Of a DNA stretch of 64,000 bases, positions 51,860-58,217 are shown one piece after another. Position numbers and translations under genes: made by a program. Each line of letters opens with the position of its first letter. The stretch's first letter is position 1. The stretch comes from Yersinia alsatica (GTDB lineage Bacteria; Pseudomonadota; Gammaproteobacteria; Enterobacterales; Enterobacteriaceae): NCBI RefSeq assembly GCF_902170305.1, contig NZ_CABHWW010000023.1:186001-250000 (forward strand), given 5' to 3'. The notes beneath the pieces were generated by a model. That model did no database searches, had not been told where the DNA came from, and was given only the letters and a program-made list of their open reading frames with translations.

Positions 51860-52009
51860 ATGGTGTTGGATTTTATGACAGTGACAGCATTTTTTGTTCT
51901 TTGTGCCTATAAACTTTTAGTAAAGCTCCTTTCTATGTCTAGCTGTGTGGTTAATTTACATTTTTTTCATTATTTCACTCGCGGTAACTGGTCCCAGCGT
52001 GTTGTATAA
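51860..52009 (+). CDS. Possible 49-aa single-pass membrane protein
   Basis: The ATG at 51860 has GGAGG 8 bases upstream. Residues about 2-23 (VLDFMTVTAFFVLCAYKLLV) form one membrane helix. The end runs 40 bp into the rumB 3' end on the opposite strand. The upstream pentapeptide gene ends 90 bp before. Could be real, could be chance. Confidence 0.3.
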   Translation: MVLDFMTVTAFFVLCAYKLLVKLLSMSSCVVNLHFFHYFTRGNWSQRVV

Positions 52010-53238
52010 GCGGGAGACAAATGCTCTCGCTTCATCGACCAATCTTTCTTCGTACCTTGTCCAGCAAAGAAAACCTTTCCGGCACCGCTTTGGTTAATGG
52101 TGTCCAATACAGACATTAACTGTTGGCTATTGGAGCGGGTCGATACGTCATCGAATAGTCCTGGTTGAAACATGCCAGGATCGTAAAAGTCAGACAGCAT
52201 GACGCCCGCTTTGGCGTAACGAAAACCATCCTTCCAAATCCGCTTGAGTAAGTGATTGGCCAGCTCGATAAAATCACGCGTATCGCAACTGGGGATCAAC
52301 AACTCGCCCGATGCGGAATTGCTGTATTGCGGCTCGTTGTCCTTAAAGGGGCTGGTACGTATGAACACGGTCATCACTTTGGCTTGCTGCTGTTCTTTGC
52401 GTAGCTTCTCAGTGGCGCGGGTTGCGTATTCGCATACGGCCTCACGTAACAATTCAAATTGCGTTACTTTTACGCCAAATGAACGGCTACAGACGATTTG
52501 CTTCTTAGTTGGCGGGATCTCTTCAAGTTCAATGCACGACTCACCATTGAGCTCTCTGACGGTTCTCTCTAAAACTACTGAAAACTGGTCTCTGATGGCT
52601 CTAGGAGAGGCATTGGCGAGGTCTAAGGCTGTGGTGATACCCAACGTATTTAAACGCTTAGAAAGCCGTTTACCAACGCCCCAAACATCATCAACCGGGA
52701 CTAATGCGAGCAATCGACGTTGCCGATCTGGATTGGTCAGGTCTACAACCCCCTGAGTGGCCGGATACTTTTTGGCGGCATGGTTAGCCAGCTTGGCGAG
52801 TGTTTTAGTCGGTGCAATGCCTACACAAACGGTGATCCCAATCCAGTGGCCTATGCGCTCTCGCACTTGTTGTCCGAACTCGACAAGGGATATGGCCGAC
52901 TCAATACCGGTTAAATCCAAAAACGCTTCGTCAATGGAGTAAACCTCTACTCGTGGTGCCATCTCCTCCAAAGTGCGCATCACTCGACTGCTCAAATCTG
53001 CGTACAGCGCGTAATTGGACGAGAATGCCAAAATACCATGACGCTGCATTTCAGCTTTGATTTGAAAGACGGGTACGCCCATTTTAATACCGAGTGACTT
53101 GGCTTCACGCGAGCGTGCAACCACGCAACCGTCATTGTTGGACAGCACCACAACCGGCGTATCTTTTAAATCAGGACGAAACAGCTTCTCACAACTGGCG
53201 TAAAAGTTGTTGCAGTCCACCAAGGCAAATACAGGCAT
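51970..53238 (-). CDS. rumB: UmuC-like Y-family DNA polymerase
   Basis: 422 aa, the length of UmuC, from the start at 53238 (MPVFALVDCNNFYASCEKLF). Catalytic carboxylates are in FALVDCNNF and YSIDEAFLDLTG, with the helix-hairpin-helix and little-finger domains following. With cleaved RumA it forms an error-prone translesion polymerase. In several SXT-type elements rumB is broken by an antibiotic-resistance insertion; here it is intact. Confidence 0.96.
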   Translation of the reverse strand: MPVFALVDCNNFYASCEKLFRPDLKDTPVVVLSNNDGCVVARSREAKSLGIKMGVPVFQIKAEMQRHGILAFSSNYALYADLSSRVMRTLEEMAPRVEVYSIDEAFLDLTGIESAISLVEFGQQVRERIGHWIGITVCVGIAPTKTLAKLANHAAKKYPATQGVVDLTNPDRQRRLLALVPVDDVWGVGKRLSKRLNTLGITTALDLANASPRAIRDQFSVVLERTVRELNGESCIELEEIPPTKKQIVCSRSFGVKVTQFELLREAVCEYATRATEKLRKEQQQAKVMTVFIRTSPFKDNEPQYSNSASGELLIPSCDTRDFIELANHLLKRIWKDGFRYAKAGVMLSDFYDPGMFQPGLFDDVSTRSNSQQLMSVLDTINQSGAGKVFFAGQGTKKDWSMKREHLSPAYTTRWDQLPRVK

Positions 53239-53245
53239 GGGATAG

Positions 53246-53695
53246 TCACGACTTGCGGCGCATGTTTCGCACCACATTGGTGACCACACCAAATATCTCT
53301 AACTCTGTCCCTTCAGGAATATGAATAGGCTCATACGCCCGGTTTCTTGGGATCAGCTTTACGCATGGCCTCAGCTGAAGCTCCTTTACCGTGAGTTCAC
53401 CATGGATGCCAGCGATGACAATGTCACCGTGTTCGGCTTGAACAGAGCGATCAACCACCAAAATATCATCTGGGTGAATCCCGGCATCAATCATTGAATC
53501 ACCTTCAACACGCACAAAGAAGGTTGCAGCCGGTCGCTTGATGCACAGCTCGTTAAGGTCGAGCGTTTGCTCAACATAATCCTGCGCTGGTGAGGGAAAA
53601 CCAGCAGAAACACGTTCCATGAACAATGGAATACGAAGGCGCTTGGCTTTGATGAAGGCAAGTGCGCCGCTACGGCCTATCAGCGAGACACTCAT
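53246..53695 (-). CDS. rumA: UmuD-like SOS mutagenesis peptidase
   Basis: 149 aa. The self-cleavage site Ala31-Gly32 (SAGFPSP) and the catalytic pair Ser67 (EGDSMIDAG) and Lys104 (ELTVKEL) are present. RecA-stimulated cleavage activates it as the partner of RumB. It ends 7 bp before the rumB start. A LexA box lies upstream. Confidence 0.96.
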   Translation of the reverse strand: MSVSLIGRSGALAFIKAKRLRIPLFMERVSAGFPSPAQDYVEQTLDLNELCIKRPAATFFVRVEGDSMIDAGIHPDDILVVDRSVQAEHGDIVIAGIHGELTVKELQLRPCVKLIPRNRAYEPIHIPEGTELEIFGVVTNVVRNMRRKS

Positions 53696-53722: not shown

Positions 53723-53742
53723 ACTGTTTGTTTATACAGTAT
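53723..53742 (-). promoter_or_regulatory. LexA box of rumAB
   Basis: tactgtttgtttatacagta is a perfect CTGT-N8-ACAG SOS box, 28 bp upstream of the rumA start. Damage induction of the rum genes follows. Confidence 0.92.
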
Positions 53743-55326: not shown

Positions 55327-55443
55327 ATGTACCAAGACACCTACATTGAACATTATGCTTGCGCAATCTCGCCCTTTCAAGGGCGAGTCAAGCAAGAGGT
55401 AACTAGCTGCAAGGCAGCAACTTGCAAACGTCAAGAAGTATGA
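55327..55443 (+). other. Short frame spanning the IS605-type left end
   Basis: A 38-codon frame starts MYQDTYIEHYACAISPF with GAGGA upstream, then crosses the left-end hairpin and stops before the LexA box half. It may be the beginning of a cargo gene cut by the IS605-type insertion, or chance. Confidence 0.2.
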
Positions 55444-55450
55444 TAAAATA

Positions 55451-55462
55451 CTGTATATCCAT
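55451..55462 (+). promoter_or_regulatory. Left part of a LexA box split by ISL3
   Basis: CTGT (55451-55454) plus the 8-bp target duplication atatccat (55455-55462). The other part, atatccat plus ACAG, is at 56763-56774. Removing the ISL3 element and one duplication gives ctgtatatccatacag, a perfect CTGT-N8-ACAG box ending 8 bp before the tnpB ATG. Confidence 0.8.
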
Positions 55463-56762
55463 GGCTCTTCACTGAATGTGGTGGAACAGTTAAAGTTCAC
55501 CCACAACATACTCTCAAAATTCAGTGATGAGCGAAGCTGCCTTATATCAACAAATCTTGGGATTAACCCCTCCCTGGAACGTCTCTAATGTTCATCTTGA
55601 TGAACAACATCAGCGTATTATTGTCATTGTTGAATATGCTGCATCATCAAGCATTCAATGCCCAATATGCGAGGCTCCCAGTCGTCACTATGACTCCCGT
55701 CAGAGAACATGGCGGCACTTAGATACTTGCCAGTATCAAACACTTATTCAGGCTAATGTTCCGCGTATTCACTGTCCGACACATGGTTACCAGACCCTTC
55801 AGGTTCCCTGGGCAAATGAAAGTAGCCGCTATACCGAATTATTTGAAATGCGTGTCCTTACGCTGTTGTCGATGAGTACCCTTAATGCTGTCAGCCGATT
55901 TTTCAAACTCAGTTGGGGGGCAATTGATAGGATCATGGAGCGAGCGGTTAATCGTGGTTTGGCAAAACGCAGTGCGGTGAATACCCAGCATTTATTAGTA
56001 GATGAGACGGCTCTTAAAAAGGGACATGAATATGTCACCTTACTTTCAAACCACGAAGGGCAAGTACTGGCGGTATCAGAAGGGCGTTCAGCGACCAGTT
56101 TTGCTGATTGTTTGGCACAACTCCCTGCAAATTCAGTAAGTCATACTCAGTCGGTGTGTATGGACATGAGCCCTGCCTACATTAAGGCGGCAAGACGACA
56201 CATACCAAATGCCGAAAGGAAAATAGCCTTTGACCATTTCCATATCGCTAAATTACTGACTGAAGCGGTCAATAAGATCCGTAAAGCAGACCTCTTCGGA
56301 TTGGCACCATCAATGAGACAAGAAGCACATAGGACTCGTTTTAGCTGGTTAAAGCGGCAAGAAAATCTGTGCGATACAGACAAAGAAAGGGTTAATAAGC
56401 TTGTTCCCGCCATGATGAATACTGCACTGGCTTGGTATTTTAAAGAACTCGCAAGAAATATCTGGTACAGCAACCGAGTGAGAGGAGCTAAACAACGCTG
56501 GAGCAACTGGATAGCGTTGGCCAAAGCCACAGAGTTAAAACCGTTAATCGCAGTGGCAGACACAATAGAGAATAAGCTCTGGGGGATCCTTAACGCTATG
56601 CGTTTTGGTCTATCAAATGGACTAGCGGAAGCGATAAATAGCCAAGTTAGGCAACTAAGAGTAAAAGCGATGGGATATCGGAATTCGGCACGATTTCGAC
56701 GTGCGATATTGTTTCATTTCGGAAAGCTGGATATGGGATTCCACCAATAACGGCGAAGAGCC
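55463..56762. mobile_element. ISL3-family insertion sequence, 1300 bp
   Basis: The ends are inverted repeats starting ggctcttc, matching at 16 of 22 positions. They are flanked by a perfect 8-bp target duplication atatccat (55455-55462 and 56763-56770). One transposase gene. The 8-bp duplication and GGCTCTT ends are typical of ISL3. Confidence 0.93.
55527..56750 (+). CDS. ISL3-family transposase
   Basis: 407 aa. An N-terminal zinc finger (IQCPICEAPSRHYD, HCPTHGYQT) and helix-turn-helix are followed by the DDE core: Asp in LLVDETALKKGH, Asp in VCMDMSPAYIK and Glu in LAEAINSQVRQLR. Frame intact. Confidence 0.94.
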   Translation: MSEAALYQQILGLTPPWNVSNVHLDEQHQRIIVIVEYAASSSIQCPICEAPSRHYDSRQRTWRHLDTCQYQTLIQANVPRIHCPTHGYQTLQVPWANESSRYTELFEMRVLTLLSMSTLNAVSRFFKLSWGAIDRIMERAVNRGLAKRSAVNTQHLLVDETALKKGHEYVTLLSNHEGQVLAVSEGRSATSFADCLAQLPANSVSHTQSVCMDMSPAYIKAARRHIPNAERKIAFDHFHIAKLLTEAVNKIRKADLFGLAPSMRQEAHRTRFSWLKRQENLCDTDKERVNKLVPAMMNTALAWYFKELARNIWYSNRVRGAKQRWSNWIALAKATELKPLIAVADTIENKLWGILNAMRFGLSNGLAEAINSQVRQLRVKAMGYRNSARFRRAILFHFGKLDMGFHQ

Positions 56763-56774
56763 ATATCCATACAG
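56763..56774 (+). promoter_or_regulatory. Right part of the split LexA box, just before tnpB
   Basis: atatccat (second copy of the target duplication) and acag. The tnpB ATG at 56782 begins 8 bases later, so a promoter controlled by the intact box would have driven tnpB. Confidence 0.75.
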
Positions 56775-56781
56775 GTCATTG

Positions 56782-58173
56782 ATGGGGTACTCTTTGCTCA
56801 CTGGTATCAAGCTCCGCGCTAACCCTACATCCAATCAAAAACTGGTATTAAGCCAGTGGATGGGCTGTGCGCGTAGCATTTGGAATGCCAAAGTGGATGA
56901 GGAAAGGTATTACCGCACTTTTGCAAGGAAGTATTACCCGATTGGTACTTACGCGCCGCTTGATCAAAAGACATCGCAGTTTAAATCGAAAGAACTATCT
57001 CCTTGGCTATACCAGTGTCCTAGCCAAATACTCCGCAATAGTGCTGTTAACTGGTATCAAACCTATCAAAAGTTCATGAAAGGCGCATGTGGACGGCCAA
57101 AGCGCAAGCCAAAAACCGACAAGGGAAGCATTTATCTTACCCGTGAAGTATTCCATTTCGACCGTTGTGAAGATGGTAATTTACGCCTGTTTATTGGCAC
57201 TAAGACTAATAATATTGGTTATTTATCGTTTAAAGCGCATCGTAAGTTTGAGATCCCTAATTCGCTGTATGTGCGTAAAGAGCGCGGTCAATACACGGTG
57301 TCTTTCTGTTATGAGAATGGAAAGAATGAAGTTGAGCTATCGAGCAATGCTGAACACTTGGCGTTTCTGCAAGGCTCAACAAAAGAGTATCTGGAAGAAA
57401 GCGTTATCGGTGTAGACAGTGGTGTTGCCATCCCTGCTCATGCTGGCTCAATGACGTTCGACTTCTGTGACAATCAGAAAAAGAAGATGACCAAAGTTGA
57501 TCGCTACATTAAGCGACTACAACGCAAGTTGGCGCGTCAAACTAAAGGCTCAAACCGCAGGAACAAAACTAAGCACCGTATTGCTACGCATCACGCTAAA
57601 AAGGCGAACATACGTAATGACTTTGCGCATAAAACAAGTCGTTCATTAGTCGATAGTCAAGCTAAGGTTATTGTGTTCGAGGCGCTAAGTACCTCACGCA
57701 TGACGCGCAAGCCAAAGGCAAAACAAAACGAGCAAGGCCGATATGTGTCAAATAAAGCCAAACAAAAGGCAGGGCTAAACAAGTCTATTCTGAACGTTGG
57801 TTGGCACATCATAGAAACCTACACCAAATACAAGGCTTACCAAGCGGGTAAAGCCGTATTCAAAATCCCTGCTCCGTATACCAGTCAGGAGTGCGCTCAG
57901 TGCGATCACACTCACCCCGACAACCGAAAATCACAAGAACTCTTTGTGTGCGGCAATTGTGGCAATACTGACAATGCAGACAACAACGCATCATTGGTCA
58001 TTAAGAAACGGGCAATTAATCTAATATTAGACACTGGAACGGTGTTGTCTGACGATGGAGTTCTAAGAACTCAGTCAGATAGTGGACGTGGAGGCAATCG
58101 TAAGACTAGCCGAGCCAAAAGCTCGACTAGCGGTGTCCAACGAAGCGTCAAAAAAGAAAAGCTAGCGGCTTAG
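56782..58173 (+). CDS. tnpB: TnpB-type RNA-guided nuclease
   Basis: 463 aa. RuvC-like acids are at Asp212 (VIGVDSGVAIP), Glu300 (VIVFEAL) and Asp400 (DNADNNAS). The zinc knuckle is at Cys371/374 and Cys390/393, and the N-terminal wedge helix is present. All active-site residues are intact. TnpB proteins cut DNA guided by an omega RNA transcribed from the element's right end, helping the element persist. The C-terminal tail after 410 is basic. The original promoter region is interrupted by ISL3, so expression may now depend on transcripts from ISL3. Confidence 0.88.
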   Translation: MGYSLLTGIKLRANPTSNQKLVLSQWMGCARSIWNAKVDEERYYRTFARKYYPIGTYAPLDQKTSQFKSKELSPWLYQCPSQILRNSAVNWYQTYQKFMKGACGRPKRKPKTDKGSIYLTREVFHFDRCEDGNLRLFIGTKTNNIGYLSFKAHRKFEIPNSLYVRKERGQYTVSFCYENGKNEVELSSNAEHLAFLQGSTKEYLEESVIGVDSGVAIPAHAGSMTFDFCDNQKKKMTKVDRYIKRLQRKLARQTKGSNRRNKTKHRIATHHAKKANIRNDFAHKTSRSLVDSQAKVIVFEALSTSRMTRKPKAKQNEQGRYVSNKAKQKAGLNKSILNVGWHIIETYTKYKAYQAGKAVFKIPAPYTSQECAQCDHTHPDNRKSQELFVCGNCGNTDNADNNASLVIKKRAINLILDTGTVLSDDGVLRTQSDSGRGGNRKTSRAKSSTSGVQRSVKKEKLAA

Positions 58174-58189
58174 GCGGTTATCTTGGAAG

Positions 58190-58217
58190 CTCGCTGCTTT
58201 AGCTGCGAGTAGTTCAC
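58190..58217 (+). ncRNA. IS605 right-end hairpin, probable 3' end of omega-RNA scaffold
   Basis: Stem ctcgctgc/gctgcgag with one T-T mismatch, loop ttta, then tagttcac. In TnpB elements the scaffold RNA ends here and the next 15-20 bases (from 58218) serve as guide. The 5' end of the RNA is not visible. Confidence 0.5.

Follow-up and report, generated by a model that had tools for sequence, protein, structure and literature searches.

An ISL3 clade that very probably takes LexA (SOS) operators as its insertion sites

An ISL3 element inside a LexA-boxed tnpB element

The DNA analysed here (the window) is a stretch of 64,000 nucleotides from Yersinia alsatica, in which an insertion sequence separates the two halves of a LexA box in front of a tnpB gene (Table 1). 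The element, with the termini GGCTCTTC...GAAGAGCC, has the hallmarks of the ISL3 family: a transposase with a DDE_Tnp_ISL3 domain (Pfam, E 2.3e-58) together with HTH_Tnp_ISL3 and Zn_ribbon_ISL3 domains, terminal inverted repeats starting with GG, and an 8-bp target duplication. An end-finder blind to the flanks returned the same element ends as direct reading. With the element removed, the site reads TACTGTATATCCATACAGGT, a perfect CTGT-N8-ACAG, which is the beta/gamma LexA consensus given in PMC13393415. A preliminary description had stated that the duplication coincides with the N8 spacer of this box, and both direct reading and the end-finder bear this out. It had also placed the box 8 bp before the tnpB start; the box does lie just upstream, but the gap is 7 bases (ATG at 56782). 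Judged as an operator, that is, as CTGT-N8-ACAG overlapping a promoter, the box itself is perfect, while the promoter-like match directly upstream is weak by itself and not above chance (2 found vs 2.8 expected in shuffles).

Table 1. Features of the landing site and its surroundings (positions in the window).
Feature	Position	Strand	Basis
umuD-umuC, beside the intact LexA box	51970..53695	-	
Second LexA box of the window, intact, upstream of umuDC	53724..53739	.	
tnpB element (IS200/IS605 kind), in the backbone, now holding the ISL3 element	55351..58217	+	Empty sites, TnpB domains
Promoter-like TTGCAA-16-TAAAAT, candidate original tnpB promoter	55422..55449	+	Motif match
CTGT, left LexA half-box	55451..55454	.	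Read directly
Left copy of the 8-bp target duplication atatccat (former LexA spacer)	55455..55462	.	Read directly, end-finder
ISL3 element, 1300 bp	55463..56762	+	Terminal repeats, exact duplication, Pfam ISL3 domains
ISL3 transposase gene	55524..56750	+	ORF, Pfam
Right copy of the 8-bp target duplication atatccat	56763..56770	.	Read directly, end-finder
ACAG, right LexA half-box	56771..56774	.	Read directly
tnpB (OrfB_IS605, Cas12f1-like TNB domain)	56782..58173	+	ORF, Pfam

The preliminary description had proposed aligning empty-site homologues, and this comparison places the LexA box within the tnpB element rather than in the surrounding backbone. Two annotated replicons, pR997 and pPN3F2_1, align with the window on both sides and lack 55351-58217; the backbone common to both includes a 3'-5' exonuclease and a WYL protein, and umuD is annotated on pPN3F2_1. 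The missing stretch is the tnpB element that the ISL3 element entered, so the box belonged to it. Its TnpB domains and the ends defined from the empty site identify it as IS200/IS605-type; inverted repeats can be seen close to each end, and no tnpA lies inside. About 1.7 kb away, the window holds a second perfect LexA box (TACTGTTTGTTTATACAGTA, before umuDC), intact and unused by the ISL3 element.

An origin of the box in tnpB homologues was considered and rejected: the nearest ones, which are plasmid-borne (84%, 72% and 66% identity), lack CTGT-N8-ACAG immediately ahead of tnpB and have no upstream sequence in common, and a search of viral contigs found no tnpB relatives. A second tnpB, of another lineage (locus L047, genome G325), has a LexA box of its own, whose spacer lies 7 bp from the start codon; this box too has been invaded, by an ISL3 element 99% identical to the window copy. 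The upstream regions of the two tnpB genes are unrelated, and one of 295 genomes has a match to the L047 gene. SOS-controlled tnpB elements may be a wider theme; we found no report of a LexA-boxed tnpB in the open-access literature searched for tnpB with LexA. It is plausible that the insertion has cut the tnpB of the window from SOS control, with the box in two pieces and its CTGT displaced to a distance of 1.3 kb from the gene. Read-through from the ISL3 element may transcribe tnpB instead, and the candidate former tnpB promoter would now point into the ISL3 transposase gene, which has the same orientation as tnpB.

Target sites within the clade and across the family

To collect insertion sites, the ends of relatives were located by their terminal repeats and 8-bp duplication, with the flanks ignored. 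This gave 52 distinct sites, and 50 after removal of two outgroup rows without the motif (L161 and L282). CTGT-N8-ACAG is complete at 38 of the 50, one half-site is present at 9 and neither at 3; the sbmC operator accounts for four of the sites through its alleles and orientations, and collapsing these by hand count leaves 35/47 perfect. The count leaves out loci that lack the combination of terminal-repeat pair and 8-bp duplication (interrupted by contig ends, truncated or recombined), including several single ends without CTGT, such as L051, L082, L087 and L091. Copies read after the count also stay outside it, among them L295 (CTGT/CCAG, with a single mismatch in the duplication), L296, which has no pair, and both fimB copies. 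ISKpn25 at mgrB was left out as well, its insertion positions being given without flanks in the accessible part of the published text. A scan of genome contigs for close relatives gave five loci, few of them useful. At one locus, L020, the LexA spacing is 7 bp instead of 8.

The symmetrised logo of the clade reads T-A-C-T-G-T-A-T-A-T, with TG at 99%, the first C at 90% and the last T of CTGT at 92%, and agrees with the LexA consensus including the spacer and the outer TA. CTGT-N8-ACAG occurs 58 times in the 5.0 Mb of the Y. alsatica genome, against 39 occurrences of the reversed pattern, and a random landing at such a site has a chance of about 1e-5 per position. The preliminary description had weighed a preference for LexA boxes, as palindromic targets, against a chance hit, and had named relatives lacking CTGT/ACAG flanks as the observation that would speak against a preference. 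The 50 sites give the opposite outcome, and the preference holds. That an unselective element hit the box by chance in the window alone is scarcely credible: the genome does hold a single copy, which would fit, but relatives land at CTGT-N8-ACAG repeatedly, among them both G325 copies of the 99% identical element and an 80% relative on the Shewanella plasmid pSA70-3.

The preference is not a general property of ISL3, an idea that the control elements rule out. Other ISL3 elements with a repeat pair and duplication, from 26 loci that give 25 distinct sites, match at 0 of 50 half-sites, and a further 21 copies from four genomes, read by eye and including some loci also in the tree, show no CTGT/ACAG pair. 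In a tree of 47 transposases, all positives fall in one clade of 28 rows with support 97/99, and the nearest group (L161, L162, L189 and L190; 37-43% identity to the window transposase) is negative for the preference. The label 'no half-site' requires 4 changes on this tree, vs 15.9 in shuffles, with 0 of 500 as low; one row, L173, has a very long branch and is probably in the wrong frame. The window transposase lies within the supported clade and its duplication is a LexA spacer, placing the element among the box-targeting members, which also comprise relatives in Shewanella- and Vibrio-type hosts, ISKox3, and ISEc53-type elements of Enterobacteriaceae. All clade members seen came from hosts of the same order, from named plasmids of gamma-proteobacteria or from viral contigs whose host is not stated.

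Near-random insertion, followed by survival of those copies that are harmless or useful at SOS operators, is a highly improbable account of the pattern. Most sites do lie between genes, next to dispensable ones, and selection against insertions within genes surely acts; selective loss of these could sharpen the apparent preference. Yet at 38 of 50 sites the duplication equals the spacer base for base, and no selection acting on expression could set that register; the other ISL3 elements, exposed to the same selection, match at none of their 50 half-sites. A test for intragenic sites based on stop-free frames separates poorly, since unrelated joins also reach a median of 30 codons.

The other ISL3 clades, with the terminal repeat GGTTCATCGC or GGCGCTTC, share the family and the 8-bp duplication with the window element but insert in T-rich stretches without CTGT/ACAG flanks. 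Elements with the GGTTCATCGC repeat land in T-runs (L023, L025, L027, L028, L029, L199, L207, L208, L210, L212 and L228-L230), several directly after a G+C-rich stem. Intrinsic terminators are thus possible targets of these elements, as a second target specialisation in the family.

SOS genes, Escherichia coli and degenerate sites

The genes beside clade copies include a Y-family polymerase (presumably DinB, judging by its N-terminus), S24/UmuD-like proteins, DinI, phage integrases and the second LexA-boxed tnpB; the pSA70-3 copy adjoins umuDC. Several small neighbouring ORFs have no Pfam match. Two copies, L019 (G058) and L020 (G033), lie 17-18 bp before a tyrosine recombinase that matches Pfam Phage_integrase and resembles integron integrase, and which we take to be of that kind. 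In the Y. alsatica genome we read 40 of the 58 CTGT-N8-ACAG sites. Twenty have A/T-rich spacers, and about 12 of these precede genes that their N-termini mark as SOS- or phage-type (recN, sbmC, umuD-like, dinB, sulA, dinI, yebG and others); the remaining 20 fall mostly within long open frames. CTGT-(A/T)8-ACAG is therefore close to a synonym for an SOS operator.

From E. coli chromosomes we fetched 19 loci, two of them truncated remnants, leaving 17 intact copies: ten at sbmC, two each at tisB, dinD and fimB, and one at umuD. The genes sbmC, tisB, dinD and umuD belong to the LexA regulon, and all 15 copies at these genes have both half-sites perfect. The sbmC operator has been hit independently at least four times, by ISKox3 and by an ISEc53-type element, each in both orientations, and dinD has likewise been entered in both orientations. 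Of 5426 complete E. coli genomes, 1632 contain DNA that matches ISKox3, and in 1272 the match spans at least 80% of the query. Among all 5426, junction queries were at least 80% covered in 160 and 73 genomes for the two sbmC junctions, 190 for tisB and 406 for fimB. Clonal relatives are included in all these counts. As element-matching DNA is present in 1632 of the 5426 genomes, SOS control of sbmC, tisB, dinD and umuDC should be altered in circulating strains.

Both fimB copies (L289 and L294) are ISEc53-type elements within the coding sequence, and other strains have fimB intact. The half-sites are GTGT and CCAT, a poor LexA box with a TG/CA core, and one duplication copy is short. An element called ISEc55 is reported in fimB of clade C ST131 (PMC7671891), and judging by gene and element type, the copies seen here are probably that insertion. 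The fimB insertion of ST131 clade C can then be read as an SOS-box-seeking element at a degenerate site. In the ISEc53-type elements, which are 1885 bp long, a ClbS/DfsB-family gene precedes the transposase in the same direction (L098, L099, L103, L289-L291 and L294). We take this family name to recall colibactin self-protection.

Many sites are degenerate in two genomes of the same family, G434 and G702, which carry numerous clade copies (L109-L156; 31 and 22 ends for the pattern). Of the 29 distinct ends in G434, 15 have CTGT and 28 the TG core; in G702, CTGT is found at 16 of 41 ends and TG at 28, leaving 13 without even the TG core. Many G702 copies lack matching duplications, as if recombined with each other. 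The degenerate sites mostly retain the spacing and the TG/CA core, and those of the kind CTGG-N8-CCAG, found in G434, are predicted to be unlikely to bind LexA well.

These sites bear on what reads the target. The transposase might be drawn to DNA-bound LexA, or to an operator just vacated during SOS, so that the motif preference would be that of LexA. The logo fits LexA over the spacer and outer bases as well as at CTGT/ACAG, and copies lie at genuine SOS genes, as such guidance would have it. We nevertheless consider it unlikely: poor LexA boxes, such as the CTGG-N8-CCAG of G434 and the GTGT/CCAT in the fimB coding sequence, keep the geometry, and the cut follows the edges of the half-sites precisely, a position that a LexA dimer on the operator should obstruct. 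The degenerate sites and the fimB copies favour recognition of the DNA by the transposase, as far as target sequences can tell.

Proposed targeting and its relation to known systems

We conclude, from target sites and phylogeny, that one ISL3 clade very probably inserts site-selectively into LexA operators and that its transposase itself probably reads the target. As the duplications show, the cut is an 8-bp stagger at both inner edges of CTGT...ACAG, in either orientation, and leaves the operator as two half-boxes. The transposase would read the palindromic half-sites itself, probably as a symmetric dimer, with the core TG...CA weighing most, then the C and outer T of CTGT, the A/T-rich spacer and the outer TA. 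Since CTGT-(A/T)8-ACAG in these genomes is mostly a LexA operator, the SOS regulon would be targeted on chromosomes, plasmids, phages and other mobile elements; in the window the target was a tnpB element carrying its own box. With the operator left as two half-boxes, the downstream gene should lose LexA repression and its native promoter spacing, the promoter being displaced, and a flanking SOS promoter could read into the element. Against this explanation stand the 3 sites of 50 without a half-site, the 9 with one, the G702 sites, the 7-bp spacing at L020 and the fimB copies in coding sequence.

More tentatively, the SOS operator may act as a portable target that gamma-proteobacterial hosts share with their plasmids, ICEs and phages. 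In healthy cells LexA would shield the operators and so gate insertion to DNA damage, each landing would rewire an SOS gene, and the transposase and any cargo (ClbS-like in ISEc53) would be set beside an SOS promoter. This reading is a speculative one. Since the sister group lacks the preference, the clade also offers a clean system for how a transposase gains target specificity.

ISKox3, ISEc53 and the ISEc53-type 'ISEc55' (fimB, ST131) share transposase domains, terminal repeats, 8-bp duplications and LexA-box targets with the window element; the ISKox3- and ISEc53-type transposases are 44-45% identical to that of the window, and the ISEc53-type elements differ in carrying the ClbS/DfsB gene. 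Open-access papers naming ISKox3, ISEc53 or ISEc55 make, in their accessible parts, no mention of LexA-box targeting, and we found no report linking ISL3 to LexA, an SOS box or such target specificity in the accessible portion of the open-access literature. A short conserved regulatory or recombination site likewise serves as the address of the ISAjo2/IS1202 group (dif and pdif sites), REP-targeting elements and Tn5053-type res hunters, according to their abstracts, which do not name a transcriptional repressor operator as a target (PMC10132070, PMC1525189, PMC7765201). ISCR1, ISCR2 and ISCR8 also link LexA boxes (CTGT-N8-ACAG) to insertion sequences; there, however, the box is internal to the element and governs its transposase (PMC13393415), whereas for the ISL3 element of the window it is the insertion target. 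As far as the literature searched shows, this would be the first insertion sequence known to have a repressor operator as its address: site-selective insertion sequences are already known, and what is new is an ISL3 clade that appears to be addressed to such an operator.
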